A stretch of DNA of 64,000 bases from an uncultured beta proteobacterium (lineage in GTDB: Bacteria; Pseudomonadota; Gammaproteobacteria; Burkholderiales; Burkholderiaceae_E). How positions within the stretch are numbered: position 1 is the first letter of the stretch; every line of letters starts with the position of its first letter. Where the stretch lies: contig CAIZNI010000071.1 of the NCBI GenBank assembly GCA_903934295.1, positions 62,001-126,000 of the forward strand, in the 5' to 3' direction. Below the pieces are notes generated by a model, which had not been told where the DNA came from, searched no databases, and saw only the letters and a list, made by a program, of their open reading frames with translations. Below, in pieces: positions 45,658-63,698 of the stretch. The translations under genes were made by a program, and so were the position numbers.

Positions 45658-45816
45658 GGCGAGAAGGTACATCAAGCGGACAATGCCTGTCGCCGCGGCG
45701 GGGGCGCAACGCCGGGCGCTTCGGAACGCCGGCGTGGAATCGGCGACCGGGCTGGCGTACTCTCGCGGCTTAGCCAGACCCTGCGGCCGTCTGGGCCGCC
45801 CGACCGGAGATTGCGC

Positions 45817-47235
45817 ATGACCCGTCAAGCCGCCATCGATCAGGCCATCGGCACGCTCGATTCGGGCGAACTGTTCGAGATTCTTTCGCGCCGCATCGCG
45901 ATCCCCACCGAAAGCCAGAACGAGCAGCGCGGCCCCGAGATGCAGCGCTATCTCGATGATGAAATGATCCCGGCCTTCGAGGCGCTCGGCTTTTCCTGCC
46001 GGGTGCTGCGCCATCCCCTGTCCGCCAGCCCCTTTCTGATCGCACAGCGCCACGAGAGCGACGATCTGCCCACCGTCCTGGGCTATGGCCACGGCGACGT
46101 GATCCGCGGCCAGGACGACCGCTGGCGAGAGGGTCTCTCCCCCTGGCGCCTGACCGAGCGCGACGGCATCTGGTTCGGGCGCGGGGTGGTCGACAACAAG
46201 GGCCAGCACACCCTCAACCTGCTGGCCCTGCAGTCGGTGCTGGCGACCCGCGGACGGCTCGGCTTCAATGCCCGCTACCTGATCGAGATGGGCGAGGAGA
46301 CCGGCTCGCCGGGGCTGCGCGAACTGTGCACCGAGCACGCCGACCTGCTGCGCGCCGACCTGCTGATCGCCTCCGACGGGCCGCGCATCGCGCGCAACAA
46401 GCCCACGCTGTTCCTGGGCTCGCGCGGCGGCCTGGGTTTCGACCTCACCATCGAGTCGCGCGAGGGCGCGCACCACTCGGGCAACTGGGGCGGCCTGATC
46501 TCCAACCCGGGCGTGCTGCTGGCCCACGCCATTGCCTCGATGGTCGGTCCCAACGGCCAGATCCGCGTGCCCGGATGGGTGCCCGACCACATTCCCGACT
46601 CGGTTCGTCAGGCGGTGGGCAAGCTGGCGTTCGAGCCCGGACCCGGCGACCCGACGATCGAGCCCTGGTGGGGTGAGCCGGGGCTCACGCCCCAGGAACG
46701 GGTCTTCGCCTGGTGCAGCCTGGAAGTGCTGGCCTTCGAGACCGGTAACCCGCGTCAGCCGGTCAACGCGATTCCGCCGCGCGCCTGGGCGCGCATGCAG
46801 CTGCGCTACGTGGTGGGTGTGGACCCCGACACGCTGCTCGACAAGCTGCGGGTCTTCCTGGATCGACAGGGCTTCCCGATGGTGAAGATCGCCCCCTCGC
46901 GCGAGACGATGTTTCGCGCGTCGCGGATCGATCCGGCCCATCCGTGGGTGCAGTGGGCCGCCGCGTCGCTGCAGCACACCACCGGCCAGGAGCCGGCGAT
47001 CCTGCCCAGCCTGGGCGGCTCGCTGCCCAACGATGTGTTCACCGAGGTGCTGGGCCTGCCCACCCTCTGGGTGCCGCATTCCTATCCCGGGTCGGCCAAC
47101 CATGCGCCCAACGAGAACGTGCCGCTGACGGTGGTGCGCGAAGGGCTCTCGATCATGGCCGGGCTGTACTGGGACCTCGGCGAGGCGCCCGCGCGCCATC
47201 TGGCCGATCACCCGGTCCCCATCGACTGCCGCTGA
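45817..47235 (+). CDS. M20-family metallopeptidase/deacylase
   Basis: 472 residues. M20 metal-site motifs: GYGHGDVIRGQDDRW, GRGVVDNKGQH, MGEETGSPGL with the catalytic Glu, and a C-terminal HAPNENV. A lid domain lies between. These enzymes cleave dipeptides, N-acyl or N-carbamoyl amino acids. It is 13 bp ahead of a CoA transferase and near the nitrogen catabolic cluster, so hydrolysis of an N-carbamoyl or amide intermediate is possible but unproven. CGGAGA upstream supports the ATG. Confidence 0.9.
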   Translation: MTRQAAIDQAIGTLDSGELFEILSRRIAIPTESQNEQRGPEMQRYLDDEMIPAFEALGFSCRVLRHPLSASPFLIAQRHESDDLPTVLGYGHGDVIRGQDDRWREGLSPWRLTERDGIWFGRGVVDNKGQHTLNLLALQSVLATRGRLGFNARYLIEMGEETGSPGLRELCTEHADLLRADLLIASDGPRIARNKPTLFLGSRGGLGFDLTIESREGAHHSGNWGGLISNPGVLLAHAIASMVGPNGQIRVPGWVPDHIPDSVRQAVGKLAFEPGPGDPTIEPWWGEPGLTPQERVFAWCSLEVLAFETGNPRQPVNAIPPRAWARMQLRYVVGVDPDTLLDKLRVFLDRQGFPMVKIAPSRETMFRASRIDPAHPWVQWAAASLQHTTGQEPAILPSLGGSLPNDVFTEVLGLPTLWVPHSYPGSANHAPNENVPLTVVREGLSIMAGLYWDLGEAPARHLADHPVPIDCR

Positions 47236-47248
47236 ATCCGGAGCGCCC

Positions 47249-48436
47249 ATGGCCCGCCAGAACATGCTCGAAGGCATCCGCGTCACCGATCTCACCACGG
47301 TGTTCTTCGGCCCCTATTGCACCCAGACCCTGGCCGATCTCGGGGCCGAGGTGATCAAGCTCGAACCCGCCGAGGGCGACACCTCGCGCCTGGTGGGCAA
47401 TCCGCCGCAGACGCCCGGCATGGGACCGGTGTTCATGCGCCTGAACCGCGGCAAGCGGATCGTCGACTGGGACCTCAAGAGCGAGGAAGGTCGCCAGGCG
47501 ATGCACCGGCTGATCGAGACCAGCGACGTGCTGATCCACAACATCCGCAGCGATGCCGTCCAGCGCGCCGGGCTGGGCTACGAGGAAGTGCGCCGCCTGC
47601 GCCCGGACATCGTCTATGTCCACTGCACCGGCTTCGACGAGCGTGGCCCCTACGCGGGCCTGCAGGCCTACGACGACATCATCCAGGCCGCCTCCGGCAT
47701 GGCGCAGCTGCTGCCGATGGTTGATGGCAATCCGCAGCCGCGCTTCCTGCCGGCGGCCATTGCCGACAAGGTGTCGGGCCTGCACGCGGTCTACGGCGTG
47801 CTCGCCGCGATCATTCACAAGTTGCGCACCGGCGAGGGCCAGTTCGTCGAAGTGCCGATGTTCGAGTCGATGGTCAGCTTCAACATGCTCGAGCATCTGT
47901 GCGACAACACCTTCAAGCCGGCGACCACGTCACCCGGCTACTACCAGCGCCAGCTCGATCCGACCCGCCAGCCGATGCGCACCCGCGACGGCTTCATCGC
48001 GTTCGCGCCTTACCTGGACGATCGCTGGGTCCGTTTCTTCGAGGCGGCCGGCCACGCCCATGTGCTCCGGGAGCCGCGCTTCATCGACAAGCCGACGCGG
48101 CGCGCCAACATGTCGCAGATGTTCGAGGTGATGGCGGCGATTGCGCCCGAGCGCACCACCGACGAGTGGCTCGCGCTGATGAAGGAGGCCAACGTGCCGG
48201 CGATGCGGGTCAACCGCATCGACGAGCTGCTCGACAACCCCCAGCTGCTCGCCAGTGGCCTGCTGCGTGAGCGCGATCATCCGACCGAGGGCCGTTATGT
48301 CGAGGTGGGAATGCCGGTGCGGTTCTCGGCCCACCAGCCCGCGCCGCCCAGCCACGCGGTCGGCCCCGGCGAGCACTCCGAGTCGGTCGCGCGCGAGCTC
48401 GGCGTGGTGCCGGCGCCGCGCAAGAAGCCCGGCTGA
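47249..48436 (+). CDS. Class III CoA transferase (CaiB/BaiF family)
   Basis: 395 residues. Conserved FFGPYCTQTLADLGAEVIKLEP and MRLNRGKRIVDWDLKSEEG, with the catalytic Asp expected in the YEEVRRLRPDIVYVHCTGF region, matching family III acyl-CoA transferases. They activate carboxylic acids by moving CoA from a donor such as succinyl-CoA. Forms a two-gene unit with the M20 peptidase. The substrate is unknown. Confidence 0.92.
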   Translation: MARQNMLEGIRVTDLTTVFFGPYCTQTLADLGAEVIKLEPAEGDTSRLVGNPPQTPGMGPVFMRLNRGKRIVDWDLKSEEGRQAMHRLIETSDVLIHNIRSDAVQRAGLGYEEVRRLRPDIVYVHCTGFDERGPYAGLQAYDDIIQAASGMAQLLPMVDGNPQPRFLPAAIADKVSGLHAVYGVLAAIIHKLRTGEGQFVEVPMFESMVSFNMLEHLCDNTFKPATTSPGYYQRQLDPTRQPMRTRDGFIAFAPYLDDRWVRFFEAAGHAHVLREPRFIDKPTRRANMSQMFEVMAAIAPERTTDEWLALMKEANVPAMRVNRIDELLDNPQLLASGLLRERDHPTEGRYVEVGMPVRFSAHQPAPPSHAVGPGEHSESVARELGVVPAPRKKPG

Positions 48437-48476
48437 CCGGCCCTCAGGGGAAGCCCGGCTGACCAGCCGTCAGGGC
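48425..48476. repeat. Imperfect 26-bp tandem duplication at convergent gene ends
   Basis: Two 26-bp units beginning AAGCCCGGCTGACC (48425-48450 and 48451-48476) differ at three positions. The first contains the CoA transferase stop; the second runs into the last codons of the convergent deacetylase gene. Confidence 0.85.
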
Positions 48477-49387
48477 TGATCGGCTGGCGCCGGGTGCTGC
48501 GCGGCCCAGTGGCGGGCCACATCGACGCGCCGCGAGATCCACACGCCCTCGTGGCGCAGCACATGGTCGAGGAACCGCTCGACCCCGGCCGAGCGGCCCG
48601 GGTGGCCCGAGATCCGCAGGTGCAGGCTCACGCTCATCATCTTCGGCGCGGTCGCGCCTTCGCGATACAGCACGTCGAAGGTGTCGCGGGCCCAGGTGAA
48701 GAAGTCATCCGAGGTGCCCCACCAGCCGCGCGCGTACTTGTTGTCGTTGGTGGCGAAGGTGTGCGGCACCACCAGGTGCGGGCGGCCGGCGGCGCGCGTC
48801 CAGTAGGGCAGGTCGTCGTTGTAGGCGTTGCTGTCGTACAGGAAGCCGCCTTCCTCGGCGAGCAGCCGGCGGGTGGCCAGGCTCGGGCCGTAGCGGCAGT
48901 ACCAGCCCAGCGGGCGCGCGCCGACGGTGCGCTGCAGGCTCGCCACCGCCAGTCGGATGTGCTCGCGCTCCTCGTCCTCGCTCAGGTTGAACTGTTCGAC
49001 CCAGCGCCAGCCGTGGCACAGCACTTCGTCGCCCGACTCGCGGATCGCGGCGGCCAGCGCCGGATTGCGCTCGAGCGCCAGCGCCGATCCGCTGATGGTG
49101 ATCGGCATCGCACGTTCGCGAAACAGCCGGAACAGGCGCCAGAACCCGACCCGGGTCCCGTATTCGAAGAACGACTCGGCCGCCAGATCGCGACCGCGCA
49201 CGCCGGTCGGTCCCATGCCCGCATCGGTGAGCGTGGTCTCGGAGCGGCCGTCGCCGTTTTCGAAGCTGTACTCCGATCCTTCCTCGACGTTAAGCACCAG
49301 GTTCAGGGCCAGGCGTGCGCCGTTGGGCCAGCGCGGGTTGGGCGGGGTGGCGCCGTAGCCGGTGAAGTCGCGCGGATGCTCTTCCAT
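48470..49387 (-). CDS. puuE: PuuE-type allantoinase / polysaccharide-deacetylase fold
   Basis: 305 residues. NodB-like deacetylase fold of the PuuE branch, metal-independent allantoinases that open the hydantoin ring of allantoin. PuuE-like blocks: RDFTGYGATPPNPRWPNGAR, VLNVEEGSEYSFENGD, EYGTRVGFWRLFRLF, CHGWRW, GGFLYDSNAYNDDLPYW and MMSVSLHLRISGHPGRSAG. Preceded by GAAGGAG. Last gene of the putative sigma54-driven transporter operon, 12 bp after the NHase beta-domain gene. The actual substrate may be another cyclic ureide or imide. Confidence 0.85.
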   Translation of the reverse strand: MEEHPRDFTGYGATPPNPRWPNGARLALNLVLNVEEGSEYSFENGDGRSETTLTDAGMGPTGVRGRDLAAESFFEYGTRVGFWRLFRLFRERAMPITISGSALALERNPALAAAIRESGDEVLCHGWRWVEQFNLSEDEEREHIRLAVASLQRTVGARPLGWYCRYGPSLATRRLLAEEGGFLYDSNAYNDDLPYWTRAAGRPHLVVPHTFATNDNKYARGWWGTSDDFFTWARDTFDVLYREGATAPKMMSVSLHLRISGHPGRSAGVERFLDHVLRHEGVWISRRVDVARHWAAQHPAPADQP

Positions 49388-49399
49388 GGCGATGCTCCT

Positions 49400-49690
49400 T
49401 CAGGCCGGCGCCAGCCAGGGGCCGTGCACATCGACCAGCACCCGGTCGCCCGGCGCGGCCGGCGCATCGGGCCACAGCGCGTGCGGCTCGAAGGCCAGCA
49501 GGTACACCGGGATTGGCGGCGCGTCACGCCGGCCCTGCGCCAGGGCACAGGGGTCGGGGAAGTCGCCCCAGTCGCGCACCACCACACCGCGGCGGCCTTC
49601 GATGAAGCCGGGCACCCGATGGTGGCCGGGCGCGGGCGGCGACAGCACGCGCAGCACCGCTCCGGGTCGCCAGCGCGGCTGCCCGCTCAT
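49400..49690 (-). CDS. Nitrile hydratase beta C-terminal (SH3-like) domain as a separate small protein
   Basis: 96 residues. Start ATG 49690 overlaps the permease stop (ATGA). The sequence follows the C-terminal SH3-like barrel of NHase beta or thiocyanate hydrolase alpha. GAVLRV fits GxxVRV, PGHHRVPGFIEGRRGVV fits the PxGHTRxPxYxRGxxGxV motif, DFPDPCALAQG fits FPDxxAxG, and VYLLAFEPHALW with VLVDVHGPWLAPA fits the family ending. The rest of an NHase is not adjacent: the beta N-terminal and alpha parts are fused at 54409-55431. Inferred to complement that fusion. Confidence 0.82.
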   Translation of the reverse strand: MSGQPRWRPGAVLRVLSPPAPGHHRVPGFIEGRRGVVVRDWGDFPDPCALAQGRRDAPPIPVYLLAFEPHALWPDAPAAPGDRVLVDVHGPWLAPA

Positions 49691-50451
49691 CGGTAGGCCC
49701 AGGTGGTGAAGCGGCGCTCGACGATCGCCATGACCGCGTAGAGCACGATGCCCAGCGCGGCCAGCGCCAGCAGTCCGGCGAACACCAGCGGCACCTGGAA
49801 CGCAGCCTGCGCGCTGAGCATCAGGTGGCCCACGCCCTTGTTCGACCCCACCGTCTCGGCCATCACCGAGCCGACGAAGGCCAGCGTGATCGCGACCTTC
49901 AGCGAGCTGAAGAAGTAGGGCATCGAGCGCGGCAGGCCGATCTTGCGGATGATCTCGAGGCGGCTCGCGCCGAGTGCGCGCAGCACGTCGCGCAATTCCG
50001 GCTCGGTGGTGGCCAGGCCGGTGGCCACATTGACCACGATCGGAAAGAAGGAGATCAGGAACGCGGTGAGCACCGCCGGCAGCGTGCCCACGCCGAACCA
50101 GAGGATCAGCACCGGGACGATCGCCACCTTGGGCACCGAATTGAAGCCGATCATCACCGGGTACAGCGCCTCGTAGATGCCGCGGCTGGCTCCGATCATC
50201 ACGCCCAGCAGCAGTCCGACCACCGTGGCGATGCCGAAGCCCACCAGCGTGGTCCACAGGGTCACCGCCGAGTTGTCGATCAGGGTCGCGCGGAAGTTCC
50301 ACATCGACTGCGAGATCAGCAGGGGCGAGGGCAGGAAGGTCGGCGGAATCGTGAAGGCCCGGCAGGCCAACTCCCAGATGCCGAACAGCCCCAGTGTGAA
50401 GAGCAGGGGCCAGACCACGTAGGACGGAAGTTTTTTCATGGCGACGCTCAT
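49687..50451 (-). CDS. SsuC/TauC-like ABC transporter permease
   Basis: 254 residues, about six membrane helices. The EAA loop is RDVLRALGASRLEIIRKIGLPRSMPY, typical of nitrate/sulfonate/taurine and NMT1-linked permeases. Its start overlaps the ATPase stop (ATGA) and its stop overlaps the NHase beta-domain gene. Imports the ligand of the NMT1-type receptor encoded divergently at 51380. Confidence 0.93.
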   Translation of the reverse strand: MSVAMKKLPSYVVWPLLFTLGLFGIWELACRAFTIPPTFLPSPLLISQSMWNFRATLIDNSAVTLWTTLVGFGIATVVGLLLGVMIGASRGIYEALYPVMIGFNSVPKVAIVPVLILWFGVGTLPAVLTAFLISFFPIVVNVATGLATTEPELRDVLRALGASRLEIIRKIGLPRSMPYFFSSLKVAITLAFVGSVMAETVGSNKGVGHLMLSAQAAFQVPLVFAGLLALAALGIVLYAVMAIVERRFTTWAYR

Positions 50452-51248
50452 TCGGACTGGTGGCGGATGTGGCTGCGCAGCAGCTGCACGGTCTCGGCGA
50501 ACGCCGGGGTGTAGGTGAGCGGCAGTTCGCGCGGTCGCGGCAGGTCGACTTCATGGCGCAGCACGATGCGCCCGGGGCGCGGCGAAAACACATAGACGGT
50601 GTCGGCCAGGAAGGCGGCTTCGCGCAGATCGTGGGTGACCAGCATGACGGTGACGCCGCGCTCGGCGTGCAGGTCGCGCAGCGTGCACCACAGGTCCTCG
50701 CGGGTGAATGCATCGAGCGCGCCGAACGGTTCATCGAGCAGCAGGATCTCGGGCTCGTGGATGAGCGCGCGGCAGATCGAGGTGCGCTGCTGCATGCCGC
50801 CCGACAGTTCCCAGGGAAACTTGTTGCCGAAGCCGCCCAGGCCGACCCGACTGAGGAGCGCTTCGATCTTCTCGACATAGGCGGCGCGCTCGCGGCGCAG
50901 CAGGCGCTTGTGCGGTTCGACGACCTCCAGCGGCAGCATCACGTTGTCGATCGTGTTGCGCCAGGGCAGCAGGTTGGACGCCTGGAAGGCCATGCCGACC
51001 GATTTCAGCGGCCCCGCGATCTCGCGTCCCTCCACCAGCGCGACGCCGTCGCTGACCGGCACCAGGCCCGACAGGATCTTCATCAACGTGCTCTTGCCGC
51101 ACCCGGACGGACCGACCACCGCGACGAACTCGCCGCGCCGGATGTTCAGGTCGATGCCGTCGATGGCGAGCGTGGAGCGATCGCCGGCGCCATAGCGCAG
51201 ACTGACTTTTTCGAGTTGGACCAGATTGGCTGTGCTGCTCGAGTTCAC
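50448..51248 (-). CDS. SsuB/TauB-like ABC transporter ATPase
   Basis: 266 residues from GTG 51248. Walker A VGPSGCGKST, Q-loop FQASNLLPW, signature ELSGGMQQRTSICRAL, Walker B LLLDEPFGALDA, H-loop LVTHDLREA. ATG 51281 is in frame, but it would lie on the -12 half of a sigma54-like promoter (51281-51296). The GTG has AGAGGA 4 nt upstream and a predicted leader of about 22 nt, so GTG is preferred. First gene of the operon permease, NHase beta-domain, PuuE-like. Confidence 0.92.
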   Translation of the reverse strand: MNSSSTANLVQLEKVSLRYGAGDRSTLAIDGIDLNIRRGEFVAVVGPSGCGKSTLMKILSGLVPVSDGVALVEGREIAGPLKSVGMAFQASNLLPWRNTIDNVMLPLEVVEPHKRLLRRERAAYVEKIEALLSRVGLGGFGNKFPWELSGGMQQRTSICRALIHEPEILLLDEPFGALDAFTREDLWCTLRDLHAERGVTVMLVTHDLREAAFLADTVYVFSPRPGRIVLRHEVDLPRPRELPLTYTPAFAETVQLLRSHIRHQSE

Positions 51249-51280
51249 GGTTTCCTCTCGTTGGCTTTGCGCATCTGACA

Positions 51281-51296
51281 TGCAAGAGCCGTGCCT
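51281..51296 (-). promoter_or_regulatory. Sigma54-type promoter for the transporter/NHase-beta operon
   Basis: Minus-strand AGGCACGGCTCTTGCA: GG and GC at consensus spacing, -24 GGCACG and -12 TTGCA perfect; only the first T is changed. Predicted transcription start is near 51270. Confidence 0.72.
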
Positions 51297-51316
51297 CCCG
51301 GCGCGGACTCGCGCTT

Positions 51317-51332
51317 TGGCATGCGACTTGCA
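51317..51332 (+). promoter_or_regulatory. Sigma54-type promoter for the NMT1-like receptor gene
   Basis: TGGCATGCGACTTGCA matches TGGCAYRN5TTGCA. Predicted start is near 51343, with a leader of about 37 nt to GTG 51380. The element overlaps a perfect inverted repeat, GGCATGC (51318-51324) and GCATGCC (51330-51336). Confidence 0.75.
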
Positions 51333-51379
51333 TGCCGAAGGCGCAGCAACTGCCCCTCCGACATCGAAAGGATTCAACC

Positions 51380-52417
51380 GTGATTCGACCCCGACTGTTA
51401 TCGCTGCTGGCTGCGGCCCTGCTGACCCTGAGCGTGCCCGCGGGCGCCCAGACACCCGTCAAGTTCTCGCTCGACTGGCGCTTCGAGACGCCCAACAGCG
51501 GCTTTCTCGTGGCGCTGGACAAGGGCTTCTACAAGGCCGAGGGACTGGATGTGACGATCGATCCGGGCAATGGATCGGTCGATGGCATCAACCGGGTCGC
51601 CAGCGGCTCCTACAACCTGGCGATGGCCGATGTGAATTCGCTGGTGCGCTTTCGCGACAATCCCGCCAATCCGCAGATCAAGGCGGTGTTCATGGTGATG
51701 AACTCACCCGCGTTCGCGGTGACGTCACTGAAGAAAAGCGGTATTGCCAAGCCGAAGGATCTGGAAGGTCGGCTGGTCGGTGCACCGGCGGCCGATGGTG
51801 CCTATGCCAACTGGGCGGCGTTCATCAAGGCGTCGGGCGTGGATGCCTCGAAGGTGCGTATCGAGAATGTCGGCTTTCCGGTGCGCGAGCCGATGCTGAT
51901 GCAGGGCAAGGTCGATGCGATCGTGGGCTTTGCCTACAGTGCGATTCCCTCGCTGCAGGCCAACGGTATCAAGCCCGAGGACATCTCGGTGATGTACATG
52001 CGTGACTTCGGGCTCGAGCTGTTCGGTAACGCGCTGCTGGTCGGCCCCCAGTTCCTGAAGGACAACCCCGACACGGTGCGCAAGTTCATCCGCGCGAGCA
52101 TCCGCGGCTTCATGGAGGTGGCGAACAACCCGGCCGAGGGCATGGCCTCGGTGCTCAAGCGCAACCCGGTGACCACCGAGGCGGCCGAGAAGGCCCGCCT
52201 GTCGATGTTCATGAACGACAACTTCTTCACCAGCGAGATCAAGGCCAACGGGGTCGGATTCGTTGACCCGGCCCGGCTGGCACGCTCGATCGATCAGATC
52301 GGCGAGTCGTTCAAGTTCACCAACAAGCCCCGGCCCGATGATTTCTACACCGATGCCTTCCTGCCCCCGAGGGCGGAGCGTCAGGTGCCGGCGGCGATCG
52401 CGGCGCGGCGCTACTAG
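51380..52417 (+). CDS. NMT1/THI5-like ABC transporter substrate-binding protein
   Basis: 345 residues from GTG 51380 with AAAGGA upstream. Signal peptide LLAAALLTLSVPAGAQ. VKFSLDWRFETPNSGFLVALDKGFY and GNGSVDGINRVASGSY are similar to the receptor at 19375. Divergent from the SsuBC-like pair and probably its receptor. Both sides have sigma54-type promoters, so uptake is likely nitrogen-controlled. Confidence 0.92.
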   Translation: MIRPRLLSLLAAALLTLSVPAGAQTPVKFSLDWRFETPNSGFLVALDKGFYKAEGLDVTIDPGNGSVDGINRVASGSYNLAMADVNSLVRFRDNPANPQIKAVFMVMNSPAFAVTSLKKSGIAKPKDLEGRLVGAPAADGAYANWAAFIKASGVDASKVRIENVGFPVREPMLMQGKVDAIVGFAYSAIPSLQANGIKPEDISVMYMRDFGLELFGNALLVGPQFLKDNPDTVRKFIRASIRGFMEVANNPAEGMASVLKRNPVTTEAAEKARLSMFMNDNFFTSEIKANGVGFVDPARLARSIDQIGESFKFTNKPRPDDFYTDAFLPPRAERQVPAAIAARRY

Positions 52418-52429
52418 GCGAGTGCGGCG

Positions 52430-52459
52430 CGGTCCGCGGCCGGATGCGGCTGCGGACCG
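52430..52459. terminator. Hairpin downstream of the NMT1-like receptor
   Basis: CGGTCCGC (52430-52437) pairs with GCGGACCG (52452-52459), 14-nt loop, 12 bp after the receptor stop. First of two hairpins between convergent genes. Confidence 0.45.
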
Positions 52460-52463
52460 TCTT

Positions 52464-52484
52464 CGCGGGGGGAATCCCCCCGCG
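52464..52484. terminator. Hairpin between convergent genes, likely bidirectional terminator
   Basis: CGCGGGGGGA, one A, TCCCCCCGCG: perfect 10-bp arms, 4 bp before the AtzD-like stop. No T-tract. Confidence 0.5.
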
Positions 52485-52487
52485 GGT

Positions 52488-53633
52488 TCATTTCAGTGCG
52501 TCCTCGCGGAACACCACCGCCACCATTCCGCCCCCTTCCGGTGCCTGGTGCACCGAGTCGGCCGACACGAAAAAGCGCAGGTGGCCGAGCAGGCTGCCGA
52601 ACACGCCAGAGGCGGCGGCCCGGATGTGCGACTCCGGTGCCCAGCCGCTGCTGTAGACGGTGGTGCGCGAGCCGCGCACCACCCCGTCTTCCGGCACCAT
52701 GGTCTTGGCGATGAGCGCCTCGATGCGCTCGCCATCGAGCAGGTCGCCGAATGCATCGAAGCGAAATCCGTTGTCCGCCAGCAGCGCGCGGATTGAACGC
52801 TGGTCGAGCAGGTCGCGGGTGTGCGTCGAGTCGATCCGCAGGTCGCCCCCGGCACCCGGCCGGTTGCCCAGCGCCACCGCTTCGACGCGATTGATCTCGG
52901 CGCCGGTGATTCCCTGGACATGGCGCGTGTACAGCGACAGGTCGCGCGCGATCGAGGCGTCGGTGAGCTGCGCGCGGTCGATCTCGCCCAGTGCCACGCC
53001 CCCGCCGAGTGCGGAAATCGCGCGACCGCGGTGCATGGTGGTGTTCGCCGGCGTGGCCGCCGGGTGACGCGCCGGCAGCAGCGGCGATTTGATGAAGAGC
53101 AGGCGCACTTGCGAGGCCTCGAGTCCGGCGTCACGCAGGGCGGCGCGCGCGGTGTCGGCCACCCGGTCGATCAGGGCCAGCGTGCCGATCTCCCCGACCG
53201 GCACCGGCGCGCTGCGCGCAAAGCCCAGTGTCAGCCGCGCGGGCAGGTCGTCGCGGGCGGCGCCCGCTGGTGGCCGGTTGCCATCACCGGCGGCGAGCGT
53301 GGCCTCTGCGGCGGCGAGCGTGCCCTCTGCGGCGGCGAGCGGGCTGTCCTCGTGGGTCTGTGCGAAGGCGAAGCCCTTGGGCGAACCGACGCCCTCGCTG
53401 CCAATCGCGAGCATCGAGATCGCGCGGTCCGTCAGCCCGTGGCGTTCAAACAGGCGCTCGAGCTGCAGCTTGAGCAGGTCGCGCGAGAAGTCATTGGGCG
53501 CGTGGTGGCCCTCGGTCTTGGCGAACACCACCAGACGGCTGATCGAGTCGCGCGGCAAGCCGGCGAGCCAGGCGTCGAGCACCGAGACATCGCCGGCCCC
53601 GGCCATGTCGAAACACATTACCTGCGCAGTCAT
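52488..53633 (-). CDS. AtzD/barbiturase-family paralog with altered catalytic serine
   Basis: 381 residues from ATG 53633. Family motifs are clear: Lys39 (FAKTEG), Ser84 (SEGVGSP), Lys182 (FIKSPLL), RAISALGGGVALGE, Lys310 with EDGVVRGSR, and Ser357 (FVSADSVHQAPEGGG). The domain 2 serine expected in an SASAGIE-like motif is replaced: the aligned segment is QGITGAE, with Ile242 at that position. A tandem 7-residue repeat (about 99-119) lengthens a linker. Last gene of an eight-gene overlapping operon; its start overlaps the dehydrogenase stop. It may bind or open a different ring. Confidence 0.82.
   Translation of the reverse strand: MTAQVMCFDMAGAGDVSVLDAWLAGLPRDSISRLVVFAKTEGHHAPNDFSRDLLKLQLERLFERHGLTDRAISMLAIGSEGVGSPKGFAFAQTHEDSPLAAAEGTLAAAEATLAAGDGNRPPAGAARDDLPARLTLGFARSAPVPVGEIGTLALIDRVADTARAALRDAGLEASQVRLLFIKSPLLPARHPAATPANTTMHRGRAISALGGGVALGEIDRAQLTDASIARDLSLYTRHVQGITGAEINRVEAVALGNRPGAGGDLRIDSTHTRDLLDQRSIRALLADNGFRFDAFGDLLDGERIEALIAKTMVPEDGVVRGSRTTVYSSGWAPESHIRAAASGVFGSLLGHLRFFVSADSVHQAPEGGGMVAVVFREDALK
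53290..53351 (-). repeat. 21-bp in-frame tandem repeat inside the AtzD-like gene
   Basis: Units at 53290-53310 and 53311-53331 differ at one base, followed by a degenerate third copy. They encode LAAAEGT, LAAAEAT and a diverged copy in an inter-domain linker. Confidence 0.9.
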
Positions 53634-54409
53634 GAATCGCTTTCCCAGAGAGCCGTCCAGAGTTCGGCCAGCGCCAGTCCGCGGGGGGCGGCCTCGGCGC
53701 ACAGTTCAAGGTCCTTGCGCAGCCACTCGAAAGTGCGGCTGGCGTTGTTGTCGGGTTCGCTGAGGGTCGCGCGCAGCCGCTCGAGCTGCACCGAGGCGGC
53801 GCTGCCGCGCGCGAGCACATCGAAGACCTGCGCCGGATCGAGCCCGGCGGCGCGGCTGAAGGACTGCGCCTGGGCGAGGCCCGCGGCCACGCCGGCGATC
53901 GCGATCTGATTGGCCATCTTGCACAGCTGGCCCGCGCCGGGCGGCCCCAGGTGCAGGCAGCTGGCGGCATAGGCCGACATCAGTCGGATGGCCGGATCGG
54001 CATCGGCCGGATGGGCGCCCAGCATCGCGACCAGTTCGCCGCGCCCGGCGCCGGCCGCGCCGCCGCTCAGCGGCGCGTCGCAGTAGCGCAGGCCGGCGGC
54101 GCGGGCCCGCGCATCGGCCTCGCGGGCCCACCGCGCCGAGGTGGTGCCGTGTTCGATCACCAGCGTGCCGGGGTGCCAGTGCGCGATCCCCTGATCGAAG
54201 ACCGCCTGCGCGGCCGCTTCGTCGGTCACGCAGATCAGGACCGCCTCGGCCGGCCCGGGGGGCGCGGGCGTGGCGCCGAACTCGCGCTGCCAGCGGTGTT
54301 GCGTGTCGCTGTTGCGGTCGATGCCGGTCACCGCATGCCCCTGGCGCGCCAGTCGCCCGGCCATCGGATAGCCCATCGCGCCCAGGCCGATGAAAGCGAT
54401 GGTTGCCAT
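53630..54409 (-). CDS. 6PGDH/3-hydroxyisobutyrate dehydrogenase-like oxidoreductase
   Basis: 259 residues. N-terminal Rossmann motif AFIGLGAMGYPMAGRL, substrate-loop DAPLSGGAAGAGRGEL, and catalytic Lys in GQLCKMANQIAIAG. This is short for the family, with a reduced C-terminal helical domain. Probably oxidises a beta-hydroxyacid or reduces a semialdehyde. It overlaps both neighbours (1 bp and 4 bp). A second family member is three genes upstream. Confidence 0.9.
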   Translation of the reverse strand: MATIAFIGLGAMGYPMAGRLARQGHAVTGIDRNSDTQHRWQREFGATPAPPGPAEAVLICVTDEAAAQAVFDQGIAHWHPGTLVIEHGTTSARWAREADARARAAGLRYCDAPLSGGAAGAGRGELVAMLGAHPADADPAIRLMSAYAASCLHLGPPGAGQLCKMANQIAIAGVAAGLAQAQSFSRAAGLDPAQVFDVLARGSAASVQLERLRATLSEPDNNASRTFEWLRKDLELCAEAAPRGLALAELWTALWESDS

Positions 54410-55431
54410 CAGCCGGCCTGCGGCGCGCGCGGCACCGCCACGCCGATCAGGCAGTCGCGGGTGACCAGGGCGGCGAGGTCGACCTCGTCCAGGTGGTCGG
54501 TGCCGGCAGGCCGGCGAGGCAGCACCATGTAACGCAGGTCGGCGGTGCTGTCGAAGACATCGATTCGCATCGACGGCGCCAGCTCGAGTCCGAATTCGGC
54601 CAGCACCCCGCGCGGGTCACGGATGGTGCGGGTGCGATAGGGTTTGCCGATGTACCAGGCCGGGGGCTGGCCGAGCAGGTTGCGCGGGTAGCAGGAGCAC
54701 AGGGTGCAGACGATCACGCAGTGGACCTGCTCGGTGCTCTCGACGATGGCCAGCCGGCCGTCGCGAAACGGGATGCCGAAAGCCTCGCAGGCGACGCGGC
54801 CGTCGTCGAGGATCGCGCGCCGAAAATCATCGTCGACCCAGGCCCGCGCGACGATGCGCGCGCCCCAGGCGGGCGTTGGCGCATCGATGCGTTCGATCGC
54901 GACGCGAATCGCCTCGCGGGTCAGCAGGCCGCCGTCCACCAGCAGTTCGGTCAGCGCAAGGGTGCGCCACTGCGCCTCGGCCGGTGGCGTGTCGCGCGCT
55001 GGCAGGTAGCCGCTGCCGCCGTAGGGGTCGGGCTGCACGCCGGCCGCCGGTGCGCAGGGATCGCCGCTGCGATCGGCGAGCCGGGACAGCCATCCGGCAT
55101 CGGCCTGCCAGCGCTGCTTGAGTTCACCGACCTTCGCCGACAGGGCCGCGGGATCGATCACACCCTTGCGCTGCAGGATCAGCGTCATGCTGGTGAGCAT
55201 GCGTTCGAAGAACGAGAGGTCGTTGTAGAGCGTCTCGCCGAAGGTCTCGAAGGTGTCGCGCAACTCGTCCAGCGGCACCAGACCCGGTTCGCCCAGCAGC
55301 ACGCGGATCGCCGCGCACTGGCGCTCCCACTGGAACAACTCGCGTTCGCTGCGGTCGATCGGTCCGCTCTCGCCCCAGCCCGGCGTGTCGGTGCGCCCGC
55401 CGATGTCGTGGTAGCGGCGCGGCTCAGTCAT
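54409..55431 (-). CDS. Nitrile hydratase betaN-alpha fusion (Co-type)
   Basis: 340 residues. Residues 1-115 resemble the NHase beta N-terminal domain: RYHDIGG at the start, then helices through LQRKGVIDPAAL. Residues 150-335 are a complete NHase alpha domain: ARIVARAWVDDDFRRAILDDG, then VCTLCSCYPRNLLGQPPAWY with the metal-binding claw Cys242, Cys245, Ser246, Cys247, and AALVTRDCLIGV. CTLCSC is the cobalt-type motif. The beta C-terminal domain is missing here but encoded at 49400-49690. It hydrates nitriles to amides in known relatives. It overlaps the RutB-like gene by 8 bp. Confidence 0.87.
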   Translation of the reverse strand: MTEPRRYHDIGGRTDTPGWGESGPIDRSERELFQWERQCAAIRVLLGEPGLVPLDELRDTFETFGETLYNDLSFFERMLTSMTLILQRKGVIDPAALSAKVGELKQRWQADAGWLSRLADRSGDPCAPAAGVQPDPYGGSGYLPARDTPPAEAQWRTLALTELLVDGGLLTREAIRVAIERIDAPTPAWGARIVARAWVDDDFRRAILDDGRVACEAFGIPFRDGRLAIVESTEQVHCVIVCTLCSCYPRNLLGQPPAWYIGKPYRTRTIRDPRGVLAEFGLELAPSMRIDVFDSTADLRYMVLPRRPAGTDHLDEVDLAALVTRDCLIGVAVPRAPQAG

Positions 55432-56116
55432 CGCAGGCCGCCTCCAGCCCCGCCACCGGCGCCACCCAGCCGAAGAAGCGTTCGACGTTCCACAGCGTGG
55501 CTTCGCGCAGGTACGCGGGCCCGGCATGATGCGTCGCGTCCTCGATCAGCAGGCAGAAGTATTCCCGGTGGTAGGCCTCGCGCAGGGTGCTCTCGACGCA
55601 GACGTTCGCGGCCACGCCGCACAGCACCAGGTTGCGCACGCGACGCGCCCGCAGCACCTGATCCAGTGGCGTGCCGGCGAAGGCGCTGTAGCGCGACTTG
55701 CGCACCACCAGTTCGCCATCGGCCGGCGTCAGTTCATCGACCAGCTCGTAGTCCCAGGTGCCCTCGGTGATCAGCTGGTAGGCCAGTTCGGGGCGCTCGC
55801 GCATCAGCACCTGCGCCTCGGACTTGTGCCAGACCGGCGCGCTCGGTCCGCCCACCACCAGGTGCTTGGCATCGAAGCCGCTCTGGATGTAGACCACCAG
55901 CATCCCGGCGGCGCGCGCCGCCGCGACGGTGCGCTGCACGCGTTCGATGGTGCCGGGCGCATGCGCCAGGTCGTAGCCCACCTGATCGAAATAGCCCCCC
56001 GGTTTCAGGAAACCGTTCTGCATGTCGACCACGATCAAGGCGGTCTCGCCGGCCTGCCAGTCGATGGCGGACGGCCGGGCCTGCGGCAGGCTCAGGGTGC
56101 GGGTCGGTGCGCTCAC
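55424..56116 (-). CDS. RutB-like ureidoacrylate amidohydrolase (isochorismatase superfamily)
   Basis: 230 residues. Very close in pattern to E. coli RutB: catalytic Asp31 (VVDMQN), Lys140 (VVRKSRYSAF) and Cys173 (GVAANVCVESTLRE), plus EDATHHAGP and FFGWV near the C-terminus. RutB hydrolyses (peroxy)ureidoacrylate to aminoacrylate and carbamate. No RutA-like pyrimidine oxygenase is adjacent, so here it probably removes carbamate or ammonia from a related ureido or amide intermediate. Confidence 0.88.
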   Translation of the reverse strand: MSAPTRTLSLPQARPSAIDWQAGETALIVVDMQNGFLKPGGYFDQVGYDLAHAPGTIERVQRTVAAARAAGMLVVYIQSGFDAKHLVVGGPSAPVWHKSEAQVLMRERPELAYQLITEGTWDYELVDELTPADGELVVRKSRYSAFAGTPLDQVLRARRVRNLVLCGVAANVCVESTLREAYHREYFCLLIEDATHHAGPAYLREATLWNVERFFGWVAPVAGLEAACDD

Positions 56117-56118
56117 GG

Positions 56119-57273
56119 TCAGCCCGCCTTCATCAGGGTCACCGGGCTGCGCTCGAGCACCTGGTCGAGCACCCAGTTGTCCAGCGCGTGGACGATCTTC
56201 TCCTTCACCGAAAAGCGGCCCGGGCTGGCGTGGTGCGATTGCAGGCCGCGCTGCTGCAGTTCGGAGATGTCGTTGTCCTCGCGCACCACGATGTCCTGGC
56301 GGCGGTAATAGCGGGCGGCGACCGCTTCGAAGTCGTCACGCTCAAAACGCTGCGCCGGGAAGCAGGCGGTCAGCACGATCCGGGTGCGGGTCGCACTGAC
56401 CGGGTGCGCCTCGAAGGACCACATCGTGTCGTTGGCGATCGCCAGCATCGTCGACGGATAGATCAGGATGAAGCGGCTGCCCTGGCTCGAGTCGCCGCTC
56501 AGGGTCTCGATCGGTCCGAAGCCGACGTCGTCGTTCAGCAGGGCCCGCGTGCCCTCGTGGCGTTCGTAGATGGCGGTGTATTCGCCCGGTCCCGGATCCT
56601 CGGGGATGTTGATCGCCTTCTGGCGCGACAGCGTCGAGCGGTGCACGGTGGGGATGTGGTAACCCTCCATGAAGTTCTCGACCCAGACCTTCCAGTTGCA
56701 GGCCACGTCGTATTCGACCCGGCGCCCGGTGCGCATCCGGTCGAAGCCGTACATCGCCAGCCGTTGCGGCAGGTCACCCAGCCAGTCGGTGAGCGCCGCG
56801 GTGGTGGGCGACAGGCACACGAAGACGAAGCCGCCCCAGGTCTCGAGCCGCACCGTGTGCAGCGGATAGTGCGCCGGGTCGAAGTCGCGCGATTCCTTCA
56901 TGCCCGGTGCGCCCAGCAACTTGCCGTCCAGCCCGTAGGTCCAGGCGTGGTAGGGGCAGGCGATGGTGCGGCAGTTGCCCGTGCCCTCGAGCAGCGGCGC
57001 GCCGCGGTGCCGGCAGGCGTTGCCCAGGGCGTGCAGCCGGTCCTGGTCGTCGCGGGTGATGATCAGCCGGTAGCGGCCGAACTCCGCGGTGAACCAGTCG
57101 CCGGCGCGGGCCAGCCGTTCGGTGCGGCCGACCATGACCCAGCCGCGCTCGAAGATCGTCTGCATCTCGCGCTGGTAGAAAGCTTCGTCGTGATAACAGG
57201 CTGGCGGCAGGCCTTCGGCCTCGTCCAGCGGCTTGCGGACGTTGCGGTACAGGGCAGGGTCGAACAGGTTCAT
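56119..57273 (-). CDS. Rieske non-heme iron oxygenase, alpha subunit
   Basis: 384 residues. Rieske motifs CRHRG and CPYHAWTY (about residues 87-113). The catalytic iron region has NFMEGYHIPTVHRST. The GYHIPTVH form occurs in the choline/carnitine and glycine-betaine branch as well as aromatic oxygenases. An oxygenase alone: no reductase or ferredoxin nearby. It sits 2 bp upstream of the RutB-like gene and overlaps the preceding dehydrogenase. Confidence 0.92.
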   Translation of the reverse strand: MNLFDPALYRNVRKPLDEAEGLPPACYHDEAFYQREMQTIFERGWVMVGRTERLARAGDWFTAEFGRYRLIITRDDQDRLHALGNACRHRGAPLLEGTGNCRTIACPYHAWTYGLDGKLLGAPGMKESRDFDPAHYPLHTVRLETWGGFVFVCLSPTTAALTDWLGDLPQRLAMYGFDRMRTGRRVEYDVACNWKVWVENFMEGYHIPTVHRSTLSRQKAINIPEDPGPGEYTAIYERHEGTRALLNDDVGFGPIETLSGDSSQGSRFILIYPSTMLAIANDTMWSFEAHPVSATRTRIVLTACFPAQRFERDDFEAVAARYYRRQDIVVREDNDISELQQRGLQSHHASPGRFSVKEKIVHALDNWVLDQVLERSPVTLMKAG

Positions 57274-58232
57274 GGCGGGGTTTCCGTTGGGGAAAGACAG
57301 GACGGCAGTTCGGCCCAGTCGCGGGCGCCATGCCCCGCGCGCTCGGCGGCGGCCAGGCGCGCGTGTACGGTGTCGGCCAGGGGCATCGGCCAGTCACGCG
57401 CGCGGGCAGCGTCACGCGCCAGGGTGAGATCCTTGAGCCCCAGACGCACGGTGAAGCCGGGTGCGATCTCGGGGGCGTCCGTGGCGGCGTCGGCGACCAC
57501 GCGGCCGGTGGCCTCGTACACTGGGCCGCGGAACAGTTTTCCAGTGATGACTTCGTGCACCAGGGCGGGCGGCGCGCCGTGCCGACGGGCCAGCCCGAAG
57601 GCCTCGGTCATCGCGGCGATCGCACTGCCGATCAGCAGGTTGCCGGCCAGCTTGACCGCGCAGGCCGCCTCGGGCGAGCCGGTCTCGTGAATGCGCGGCG
57701 CGACGCGCGCGAGCACCGCGCGGGCCCGCTGCACCACATCGGGCGGGCAGGTGGGGTCGGCGCCCAGTACCGCGGTCAGGTCACTGGCCCAGGCCTCCTC
57801 GGGGCGGCCGAACACCGGGCTCGCGATGAAGTACTGCCCCGCGGCCCGATGGGCGGCTGCCAGTTCGCCGGCCAGCGCGACGCTGATGGTGCCCAGGCAC
57901 AGGTGCAAGGCGCCCGCCGGCATCACCGCCAGCAGGCCGCCCGCTTCATGCACCAGGGCGTGCAGGCGGTCGTCATCGGGCAACAGCGTCACCACCACGT
58001 CGGCGCGGGCGGCCTGCGCCGTTCCGCCGGCCGCCTGCGCGCCGTGTTCGCAGGCCAGCGCGACGCGGCCCGGGTCGCGGTCGTGCACCGTCACTGCCGC
58101 GCCATTCGCGGCCAGGGCCGCCGCCACCGCGAGCCCGAGCTGCCCCAGTCCGATGACCGACAGCGTCGCCACGGGGGCATCGCTCCGGTCCATCGGGGGG
58201 GGCCGGTCCGCCGGCTGGCGCAGCGGGTTCAT
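57270..58232 (-). CDS. 6PGDH/3-hydroxyisobutyrate dehydrogenase-like oxidoreductase
   Basis: 320 residues from ATG 58232, which overlaps the preceding stop (ATGA); ATG 58193 is the alternative. Rossmann motif SVIGLGQLGLAVAAAL, substrate loop IASPVFGRPEEA and catalytic Lys in ACAVKLAGNLLIGS. Likely NAD(P)-dependent oxidation of a hydroxyacid or related intermediate. Paralogous in fold to 53630-54409, but divergent. Confidence 0.88.
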   Translation of the reverse strand: MNPLRQPADRPPPMDRSDAPVATLSVIGLGQLGLAVAAALAANGAAVTVHDRDPGRVALACEHGAQAAGGTAQAARADVVVTLLPDDDRLHALVHEAGGLLAVMPAGALHLCLGTISVALAGELAAAHRAAGQYFIASPVFGRPEEAWASDLTAVLGADPTCPPDVVQRARAVLARVAPRIHETGSPEAACAVKLAGNLLIGSAIAAMTEAFGLARRHGAPPALVHEVITGKLFRGPVYEATGRVVADAATDAPEIAPGFTVRLGLKDLTLARDAARARDWPMPLADTVHARLAAAERAGHGARDWAELPSCLSPTETPP

Positions 58233-59710
58233 GCCACCCGCAAGGCGGGTGAGGGGTCGGGTGATGCGCTGGGCGCGGCGCCCTGTGCCGGGCCAGGGCG
58301 CAGCTCCGCCTCCTCGTAGTCGTGCAGCGCCGGCAGCAGCGCATGGGCCTGCTCGGCCATCAGCGCGCCGGTGATGCCGCCCACCAATCGCGGTATCGAA
58401 TGCTTGTGGCCGCTGGCCGAGGTAGTGTGCGGACCCATGCTGACGATCGATGAGAAATTGAAGGCCCTGACCCGTTTCACCCACCCGTCGCGCAGCGGGT
58501 CGAGCGGCAGGTATTCGAAGCCGGGGCCCAGGTACGGGTATTCGCCCAGGGTGTCGCTGCGCTCGTCGGCATCCGGGGTGAAGGCATGGCGCCAGCGCCG
58601 GATCAGCGGACCCAGCGTGCGCAGTTCGCCGCGCGCCTGGTAGTCGACGACGGCGCCGGTGGCGCAGATCACATGGTCGAAGGAGAACCGGGCGTGCGGC
58701 GTGCGCACGTGCACCTGTCCGCCCTCGTCGCGGACCTCGAGCCAGGGCGAACCGGCATGCGCCCGGAACTGGGCAAACGAATGGGCGCGGTCCCAGCCGT
58801 TCTGGGTGGGCGGCTGGTCGTGCACTTCGAAGAACCGGTTGGTGCGCCAGCGCACCTGATCGTCGAGATCATGGAAGTGCTTGAGGAATCCGGCGAATTC
58901 CAGACGGCGGTGCGGATTGATGGTCGGGATGCGTTCGCGTCGAAAGCACACGTCGACCGAGGCCGCGCCGTGTTCGAGTGCGATGCAGGCGTTGTCGAAG
59001 GCCGATGCGCCGTGCCCGAGGATGCCCACCCGCCGTCCGGCCAGGCTCGCGAAGTCGATCGGTTCGTTCGAGTGGTTCAGCCGCTCGGGCGCCACCGCTG
59101 CCGAGATGGCGGGCGGTACCTGCCAGACGCCGCAGCCGTCGAAGCCGGTGGCCAGCACCACCTGGCGCGCCAGCAGCCGGCGCGGCGCCTGGGCACCCGT
59201 CTGCACGGTGAGTGCGAGCAGTTCACCTTCGGGCTGCAGCGACTGGCAGGCGGTGTCGTTGCAGACCTCGATCCCGGCGGTGGCCCGGAACCAGCGCAGG
59301 AAAGCCATCCAGCGCGGTCGCTCGATGCGTTCGATGTCGGCCCAGGCCTGCTCGCCGTAGGCGGCCCGGTAGAAGGCCGGCGCCGACAGGCTGGGGATGC
59401 CGCCTTCGATGCCCACCGTGCCCTTGGGCGTGCGCAGGTGTGTCATGCGGGCGAAGTTCTCCCAGACGCCTTCGCGGCCGGCCGGCAGCCCATCGATGAC
59501 CAGCAGGTTGGAGATGCCGTCGCGGCGCAGCGCCAGTGCGGTGCCCAGACCGGCCTGTCCGGCGCCGATGATGATCACGTCATGGACGGGCTGCCCGTCC
59601 GGGCGCGTCACCGGCAGCACCCAGTCGCGGTTGGGGTAGGCGAGCAGGGCGAGTTCCGCCCGGACCTGCTGGGTCAGGGCCTGGAGTGCAGGGGTCATGT
59701 GGGCGCTCAT
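58229..59710 (-). CDS. FMO-like NAD(P)/FAD flavoprotein monooxygenase
   Basis: 493 residues. FAD motif DVIIIGAGQAGLGTALAL near residue 45 and a second Rossmann motif GRRVGILGHGASAFDNACIAL. RTPKGTVGIEG and VVLATGFDG are conserved with the divergent paralog at 60741-62189. Likely inserts oxygen at nitrogen or carbon, or oxidises an amine. ATG 59710 overlaps the upstream hydrolase stop. Confidence 0.87.
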   Translation of the reverse strand: MSAHMTPALQALTQQVRAELALLAYPNRDWVLPVTRPDGQPVHDVIIIGAGQAGLGTALALRRDGISNLLVIDGLPAGREGVWENFARMTHLRTPKGTVGIEGGIPSLSAPAFYRAAYGEQAWADIERIERPRWMAFLRWFRATAGIEVCNDTACQSLQPEGELLALTVQTGAQAPRRLLARQVVLATGFDGCGVWQVPPAISAAVAPERLNHSNEPIDFASLAGRRVGILGHGASAFDNACIALEHGAASVDVCFRRERIPTINPHRRLEFAGFLKHFHDLDDQVRWRTNRFFEVHDQPPTQNGWDRAHSFAQFRAHAGSPWLEVRDEGGQVHVRTPHARFSFDHVICATGAVVDYQARGELRTLGPLIRRWRHAFTPDADERSDTLGEYPYLGPGFEYLPLDPLRDGWVKRVRAFNFSSIVSMGPHTTSASGHKHSIPRLVGGITGALMAEQAHALLPALHDYEEAELRPGPAQGAAPSASPDPSPALRVA

Positions 59711-60627
59711 GTTGCGTAGGCGCCGATCGAGTCGGCGATGAATCCGCGCAGCACCGAGTCTTCGCGGTTGAATTCCAGGGCCGCATCGAAGTGCGCCGTG
59801 TCGGGGATCTCGAACCAGCGGGCCGGCCGGTGCGCCTGCAGCGCCCAGTGCAGCGCCCGTGACTGGCGCAGGAACTCCGGGGTCTCCTGCGCGCCCGCCG
59901 CCACCAGCGTGGGCGGCAGCGTCAGCCGGTGGCCTTGCGCCTCGGCGAGGTCGAGGCTGTAGAGTGGGCTGCACTGGCGGGCTTCATCGGCGGTGAAGCC
60001 CAGCGCACGCTGGTGCGAGGTCAGGCGCAGCGGCGCCAGGTCGTAGAGTCCGCCCAGCAGGAGCAGCCCGCGCAGCCGGGCGACCCACGCGGGCGCGGCC
60101 TGGCCGTTGCGCGGCAGCAGGCTGGCCAGAGCCAGGTGCGCGCCCGACGAGTGCCCGGCCAGCACGAAGGCATTCGGGTCCAGATCGAATGCAATCGCCC
60201 GCTCCATCAGCGCACCCACCGCCACGGTGACGTGATCGATGACCTCGGGCAGTCGCGCCTGCGACAGCGGCGGGAAGTTCAGCCCGGCGAACGCGAACCC
60301 CATCCGGGCGCAGGCCCGCGCCCAGAACGCGGTCTCCCGGCTGGTGTTCAGCTGCCAGCGCCCGCCATGCACGAACACCAGGGTCGGCCGGCTGCAGTCG
60401 CTGTGCAGCGGGCCGATCAGATCGACGAAATCGGTGGCGCCGGTGCCCAGGTGAATCCGCTCGCGGCGCAGGTCGGCGGCGCCGAAGGCTTCGGCACTGA
60501 TCGCCTGCAGCGCCTTCAGGTCGGCCTGATTGCGCGCGCTGCGATTGTTGTCGTAGAGCTCGCCCAGGTGCTCGGGATCGTGCACCGGCGAGATGGCATG
60601 GGGGTTGATGCTGGCGTTGGTGTTCAT
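59707..60627 (-). CDS. Alpha/beta hydrolase, kynurenine-formamidase-like
   Basis: 306 residues from ATG 60627. Oxyanion motif VFVHGGRW, nucleophile LAGHSSGAHLAL, and a late His in DTAHFDAAL, as in arylformamidases/carboxylesterases. The family-like opening DPEHLGELYDNNRSARN begins just after an in-frame GTG at 60585. The sigma54-like promoter predicts a start near 60630, giving ATG 60627 almost no leader, so GTG 60585 may be the real start. No strong ribosome-binding site is seen at either. First gene of the eight-gene operon. Confidence 0.82.
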   Translation of the reverse strand: MNTNASINPHAISPVHDPEHLGELYDNNRSARNQADLKALQAISAEAFGAADLRRERIHLGTGATDFVDLIGPLHSDCSRPTLVFVHGGRWQLNTSRETAFWARACARMGFAFAGLNFPPLSQARLPEVIDHVTVAVGALMERAIAFDLDPNAFVLAGHSSGAHLALASLLPRNGQAAPAWVARLRGLLLLGGLYDLAPLRLTSHQRALGFTADEARQCSPLYSLDLAEAQGHRLTLPPTLVAAGAQETPEFLRQSRALHWALQAHRPARWFEIPDTAHFDAALEFNREDSVLRGFIADSIGAYAT

Positions 60628-60640
60628 GGCCATCGATCGT

Positions 60641-60656
60641 TGCAAGGACCATGCCA
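60641..60656 (-). promoter_or_regulatory. Sigma54-type promoter for the eight-gene catabolic operon
   Basis: Minus-strand TGGCATGGTCCTTGCA, a full match to TGGCAYRN5TTGCA, pointing at the hydrolase-to-AtzD operon. Predicted start is near 60630. Confidence 0.7.
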
Positions 60657-60668
60657 TCCCGGCGGACG

Positions 60669-60684
60669 TGGCACAGCTCTTGCG
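60669..60684 (+). promoter_or_regulatory. Sigma54-type promoter for the second FMO-like gene
   Basis: TGGCACAGCTCTTGCG: TGGCAC and TTGC with consensus spacing. Predicted start is near 60695, with a leader of about 46 nt to ATG 60741. Confidence 0.75.
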
Positions 60685-60740
60685 TCGCTTGTGGCCATCG
60701 CATTCCCCAGAAACCGCGAACGCCACAGAAGGCCCTGCCG

Positions 60741-62189: not shown

Positions 62190-62211
62190 GGCGTCGGCGA
62201 CGCGGCGTCTC

Positions 62212-63629: not shown

Positions 63630-63698
63630 GGTGTTGTCTCTCCGGTGGAACGGTATCGGGGTGGGCCGCGGTGTCGCGGTGGATGGCCGTGCGAGTGA

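Follow-up and report, generated by a model that had tools for sequence, protein, structure and literature searches.

In a 64,000-nucleotide stretch of genome from an uncultured beta proteobacterium (assembly GCA_903934295.1, contig CAIZNI010000071.1, positions 62,001 to 126,000; hereafter the window), domains of the nitrile hydratase (NHase) kind are spread over two genes lying about 4.7 kb apart. One gene encodes the N-terminal half of an NHase β subunit (βN) joined to an α subunit in a single chain, and the other encodes the C-terminal half of β (βC). Both were described in a first-pass annotation of the window, which gave the right coordinates but left the strand unstated:

54409-55431, minus strand: βN-α fusion of 340 residues, assigned by its Pfam domains
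49400-49690, minus strand: detached βC (SH3-like) domain of 96 residues with a conserved arginine (Arg25), assigned by Pfam, PDB and a structure model

The profile search proposed in the first-pass annotation was run, and it bears out the reading of the 340-residue protein as βN plus a full α domain carrying the motif CTLCSC. NHase_beta_N matches residues 6-107 with 41.5 bits (curated Pfam cut-off 21.5), and NHase_alpha matches residues 153-332 with 233 bits (cut-off 27.2), spanning positions 3-184 of the 184 in the profile. The claw in the α domain, C242-T-L-C245-S-C247, is of the cobalt type. A linker of 42 residues (approximately residues 111-152) contains no His, and NHase_beta_C was not found in the fusion by Pfam profile search, in line with the earlier claim that this domain is lacking. 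When the PDB was searched by sequence, the fusion gave cobalt NHase α chains (best E-value 1.4e-55) and weak βN matches (best E-value 4.9e-5). Chance domain matches in the two proteins are ruled out by the E-values, by the conservation in a second genome, described below, and by the fold match of the 96-residue protein.

For the 96-residue protein, the sole Pfam match is NHase_beta_C (63.3 bits, curated cut-off 27.7), and the PDB sequence search returned the C-terminal parts of NHase β chains (best E-value 9.9e-10). The AlphaFold model has a mean predicted local distance difference test (pLDDT) score of 91.2, and all 29 of its Foldseek matches at E ≤ 0.001 are chains of NHase β or of thiocyanate hydrolase (SCNase). 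Membership of an unrelated SH3 family, raised earlier as a possible refutation, is thus ruled out by the Pfam and Foldseek matches. The claimed overlap with a permease gene is also real: the ATG of βC and the permease stop codon share 4 bases.

The arrangement is not peculiar to a single assembly, as the fusion and the detached βC recur together in a genome from another genus of the same family (G425), where they are 69.7% and 60% identical, respectively, to those of the window. The two fusions align over 340 residues with no internal gap, and each is a single open frame. Between the two genomes, identity is 65% in the βN part (ratio of nonsynonymous to synonymous substitution rates, dN/dS, 0.13), 57% in the gap-free linker (dN/dS ~0.31) and 74% in the α part (dN/dS 0.17). 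Over whole genes the ratios are ~0.17 for the fusion and ~0.30 for βC, indicating purifying selection, although they are rough because dS is near saturation. Judged by eye, no clear ribosome-binding site is present at candidate internal start codons of the fusion. A frameshift, a misassembly or a pair of overlapping genes can be ruled out, given the open frame in two genera and the conserved gap-free linker; further evidence against misassembly comes from the completeness (98.53%) and low contamination (0.03%) of the genome and from the window lying on a 204-kb contig. The linker, which has a YGG...PP look in common with the inter-domain linker of canonical β subunits, might be a relic of it.

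The genes and features around the two NHase genes are as follows:

48470-49387, minus strand: PuuE-like gene of the polysaccharide-deacetylase fold, downstream of βC, without a counterpart at this place in G425
49687-50451, minus strand: ATP-binding cassette (ABC) transporter permease, in the same run as βC
50448-51275, minus strand: ABC transporter ATPase, in the same run as βC, start approximate, assigned by sequence and its match in G425
51377-52417, plus strand: NMT1/THI5-like ABC binding protein, which parts the two runs, start approximate
52462-52486: GC-rich hairpin of 11 pairs, a possible terminator, where the binding-protein and AtzD-like genes converge
52488-53633, minus strand: AtzD/TrzD-type ring-opening amidohydrolase, in the run of the fusion, start approximate
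53630-54409, minus strand: 3-hydroxyisobutyrate-dehydrogenase-like reductase, in the run of the fusion
55424-56116, minus strand: RutB-like hydrolase of the isochorismatase fold, overlapping the start of the fusion
56119-57273, minus strand: Rieske oxygenase α subunit

The fusion sits in a closely packed minus-strand run of α/β hydrolase, flavin adenine dinucleotide (FAD) oxidoreductase, dehydrogenase, Rieske oxygenase, RutB-like hydrolase, fusion, dehydrogenase and AtzD-like genes, and its start shares 8 bases with the end of the RutB-like gene upstream. A second minus-strand run comprises the ATPase, permease, βC and PuuE-like genes. Because the plus-strand binding-protein gene and the hairpin lie between them, the simple reading of the layout suggests that the fusion and βC belong to two transcription units, which supports the earlier claim of two separate gene units. 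The hairpin is only suggestive as a terminator, since the region holds 3 terminator-like sites where shuffled sequence gives an expectation of 4.8, and so shows no excess.

Twelve genes have the same order and relative orientation in G425 (locus L087) as in the window: βC, permease, ATPase, binding protein (on the opposite strand), AtzD-like, dehydrogenase, fusion, RutB-like, Rieske oxygenase, dehydrogenase, FAD oxidoreductase and hydrolase. In both genomes, PuuE-like and ureidoglycolate-lyase-like genes come next, and a second FAD oxidoreductase gene adjoins βC in G425 and is at the far end in the window. The genes at 45800-63800 form an island of the nitrogen-heterocycle (N-heterocycle) type, with two PuuE-like, an AtzD-like, a RutB-like, a ureidoglycolate-lyase-like and a Rieske gene, two FAD oxidoreductases, dehydrogenases and an NMT1-type ABC transporter. 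A large part of the island is found again in G425, and also, without NHase matches, in a genome of another family (G137, L101). An island fragment in G180 (L102) likewise gave no NHase matches in the 20 kb read. Of the 74 family genomes, only the 2 that carry the fusion gave a match to the AtzD-like gene at E ≤ 1e-60; with the limit at 1e-40, 14 of the 399 order genomes did. Also in the window is an open frame of 1470 residues (42886-47298, minus strand), of which the C-terminal part resembles a hybrid histidine kinase by eye; its N-terminal part overlaps a plus-strand M20-peptidase-like gene, and the true start is probably internal.

Searches for the fusion covered samples of 399 genomes from the order, 74 from the family, 369 from the class and 398 from the phylum, at E limits of 1e-40, 1e-30, 1e-62 and 1e-62, respectively; the samples overlap. 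Across all four, a start-to-end match was obtained only in the window's own genome and in G425. Such sampling can miss cases, as G425 was itself absent from the order sample, and a very diverged fusion might not reach the 1e-62 limit. Among plasmids, 14 of 178 matching records cover at least 80% of the fusion query, and all 14 do so as two separate pieces.

We also surveyed 181 α loci, classified with home-made hidden Markov models. These were the places matched in the order and family searches, 14 contig-set loci (some possibly from the same species as other sampled genomes) and 3 plasmid loci, with doubly fetched places counted once and one locus at a contig end (G438:C516) left out. A full-length β accompanies α at 85 loci, and at 80 there are separate genes in the order βN-βC-α (three-gene loci). 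Other orders in separate frames were α-βN-βC (5/181), βC-α-βN (4/181) and βC-βN-α (1/181), the last being a survey label only, for a locus near a contig end (L110, G181 contig C64). One or both β parts are missing from the DNA examined at 4 loci. Only at 2 of the 181, the window and G425, do βN and α occupy one frame with no βC between them. The βC-α-βN order was seen on plasmids L055, L056 and L057 (Agrobacterium, Azospirillum, Rhizobium) and in G265 (L053); in the annotated L055 and L057, the NHase is near aquaporin and CbtA/CbtB genes.

The first-pass annotation called the split new-looking. The rarity of the arrangement holds, but a three-part split is common in the survey and has been published, as the excerpted text of PMC7329996 shows for Streptomyces canus CGMCC 13662, whose NHase consists of the three subunits AnhD, AnhE and AnhA. 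Because the split itself is in print, what is new here is the fusion together with the relocation of βC.

Phylogenetic trees point to where these genes came from. In an α tree of 81 rows, the window pairs with G425 (support 100/100) inside a group of 49 three-gene rows (100/98), and in a βC tree of 76 rows and few columns they again pair (100/99) inside the corresponding 49-row group (99/93). We therefore see sequence kinship with the proteobacterial three-gene NHases for both α and βC. Three actinobacterial three-gene loci (L017, L019, L024) fall outside that group in both trees, neither of which includes the S. canus sequence. Finer placement of the pair is weak and differs between the trees. 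Capture of a canonical-type βC from elsewhere is not favoured by the βC tree, few as its columns are. As both trees place the pair in the proteobacterial three-gene group, we read the locus as a rearranged three-gene NHase. Most likely, it arose from a three-gene operon in which βC was lost from between βN and α, which became one frame, while βC was kept beside transporter genes.

The window's own genome has two further NHase loci: a complete α plus β on contig C66, of which the α falls elsewhere in the α tree, outside the three-gene group, and a three-gene set on contig C29. G425 likewise has a three-gene set (L095). The earlier suggestion that a complete β elsewhere in the genome might be the true partner of the fusion is thus right about its existence, but the β parts on C66 and C29 each adjoin an α of their own. 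The C29 set adjoins ATPase, permease and NMT1-like binding-protein genes and has a HupE/UreJ-like gene after it. An accessory-like βN frame adjoins the canonical NHase on C66.

The residues expected of an NHase active site, a CTLCSC claw and two β arginines, are present in the window and in G425. Claw residues are kept in all 50 three-gene rows, Arg58 of βN is invariant in 49/49 three-gene and 14/14 other rows, and Arg25 of βC in 50/50 and 24/24, the sorting of rows having been done by the analyst; the window keeps both arginines. From their alignment positions, we take these to be the equivalents of β-Arg52 and β-Arg157 of Pseudonocardia thermophila NHase. In that enzyme, according to the excerpted text of PMC7587978, two β arginines form hydrogen bonds to the modified cysteines, and mutating one abolishes activity. 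As there is one catalytic arginine on each polypeptide, the fusion and βC should need each other.

Just upstream of the α domain, 40 of 49 three-gene α sequences, for example that of L092 (upstream of 6977), carry a tail rich in His, counted as 4 or more His within 20 residues when the frame is read for up to 50 residues before the start. These tails possibly serve cobalt loading, and their lack of a counterpart in the fusion linker suggests another cobalt-loading route. Beyond the claw, CTLCSCYP is followed by R in 47 of 50 three-gene α sequences (I in the other three), and at that position all 29 other α sequences have W, which may make it a marker of the three-gene group.

Overall, we think it likely that the fusion and the transporter-linked βC make up one enzyme of the cobalt NHase kind, descended from three-gene NHases and serving the breakdown of N-heterocycles by the island. 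The domains, their conservation, the synteny in two genera, the purifying selection and the kept catalytic residues lead us to this explanation, under which an ancestor with separate βN, βC and α genes would have had βN joined in frame to α and βC moved to the ABC transporter unit. The fusion would hold cobalt via C242-T-L-C245-S-C247, with Arg58 from its βN part and Arg25 from βC completing the site by holding two oxidised cysteines. By analogy with AnhD2E2A2 of S. canus, the working form would be a heteromer with two copies of each chain. Its reaction would be the hydration of a nitrile, or of a comparable polar triple-bond group, in a compound handled by the island, and the amide formed could then pass to the neighbouring RutB-like hydrolase. 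A ring nitrile such as preQ0 as the substrate is a guess.

In S. canus, as excerpted from PMC7329996, AnhD (βN) acts as a metal and swapping chaperone and AnhD2A forms, while AnhE (βC) has no such role. By this analogy, the fusion may tie the chaperone half to its own α chain. A tentative extension, which we consider rather unlikely, is that maturation and activation are under separate control, such that the fusion matures in cis and remains inactive until the transporter-linked βC supplies the second arginine, and import gates catalysis. Maturation in cis would then proceed with no swapping partner and no His-rich α tail, although the accessory-like βN frame on C66 could still help in trans.

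Several observations weigh against a single enzyme made from these two chains. The pairing of fusion and βC is one that we infer from sequence. Mixed alignments shifted βN rows onto the α N-terminus, so the fusion was folded with α rows only and its βN part stayed weak: the model is confident only in the α part (block-mean pLDDT 81-97, residues 191-340), it is weak in βN and the linker, and it does not settle whether βN and α make contact in cis. Some conserved residues are altered, with Met78 in βN at a position usually taken by Trp or Arg, and in βC F29 in place of Tyr, L64 in place of Arg and L65 in place of Val, all three near-invariant positions. Over the 20 kb read, the related island of G137 gave no NHase, permease or ATPase matches, so the core of the pathway can do without an NHase. 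Regarding enzyme class, all three Pfam domains place the proteins in the NHase/SCNase superfamily above curated cut-offs. However, with the NCBIfam NHase equivalogs (TIGR01323, TIGR03888), the α part misses the cut-off for α (226.4 bits, cut-off 249.85), and the two β pieces miss that for β (34 and 59.9 bits, cut-off 152.2), each matching only about half of the model. As the SCNase γ equivalog TIGR03887 is missed too (177.4 bits, cut-off 291.45), class models do not fix the precise reaction.

One alternative, which we consider unlikely, is that the fusion works without the local βC, either alone or with the βC or full β of the two other NHase loci in the genome; the three-gene set in G425 would offer the same there. 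The toyocamycin NHase α subunit ToyJ is active alone, as cited in the excerpt of PMC7329996, and therefore a missing β half need not mean inactivity. Against this, the local βC still adjoins the permease gene in each of the two genera, is under purifying selection and retains its catalytic arginine, and every other β adjoins its own α.

It is likewise improbable that the proteins function not as an NHase but as a relative whose substrate is another triple-bond or cumulated compound (thiocyanate-, cyanamide- or cyanate-like) or a pathway-specific ring nitrile. Missing the cut-offs of both NHase and SCNase γ, the altered residues in βC and after the α claw (WYIG in the window where most rows have WYKS) and the N-heterocycle type of the island would fit such a role, but the α part scores higher with the NHase model than with that of SCNase. 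That the pair is decaying or is an accident of rearrangement yielding no working enzyme is highly improbable: long stem branches common to the pair in both trees and the loss of some conserved residues speak for it, and against it stand the open frames in two genera, the low dN/dS of both genes and the kept claw and arginines.

In short, the locus holds a known type of enzyme in a rearranged form that is real, conserved, rare and moderately surprising, and it is not a new kind of system. NHase maturation, including cobalt entry, α swapping and the role of each β half, has been worked out on enzymes of two and three chains. Here, a bacterial chain found in nature has the putative chaperone half joined to α while the other half is free, which sets these roles apart and makes them testable by adding the 96-residue protein. 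The G137 island, with no NHase matches, gives a handle on which nitrile the enzyme would serve.

Literature searches of open-licence PMC papers showed no bacterial βN-α fusion with a detached βC among the papers listed, and found no paper containing both 'nitrile hydratase' and 'barbiturase'. A 2020 review lists six NHase gene arrangements, and that of the window is not among them in the part available; excerpts of PMC8278588 and PMC12646544 describe gene sets of α, β and an activator or accessory gene. The canonical cobalt-type α/β NHases of P. putida and Pseudonocardia thermophila have the claw and both β arginines in common with the window, but possess one full-length β chain, and the α and βC of loci with a full-length β are on another branch of the trees. 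An engineered fusion of the P. putida enzyme also places β N-terminal to α in one chain (PMC4709657, as listed; PMC7193024, excerpt). Natural β-α fusions, which the first-pass annotation did not mention, are known in eukaryotes, in Monosiga brevicollis and others (PMC3323583 and PMC7193024, excerpts), and were absent from prokaryotic sequence datasets according to the excerpted text of Marron et al. 2012. These likewise carry β sequence N-terminal to α, but they join the β subunit, in M. brevicollis through a (His)17 linker, whereas the window has only βN and a 42-residue linker without His and so falls outside that class. SCNase is similar in having β as two chains and an α-like γ chain, as seen in the PDB and Foldseek chain matches. 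Each of the two β-type chains corresponds to one half of β. However, SCNase has three chains from one operon (PMC7193024, excerpt), and the window misses the SCNase γ cut-off. With AnhDEA of S. canus and the proteobacterial βN-βC-α operons, the window shares both the division of β into N- and C-terminal halves and the cobalt-type claw. Where those systems have three separate adjacent genes, the window has βC in another unit and is not a three-gene operon, and, unlike in S. canus, its AnhD-like part is covalently joined to α.

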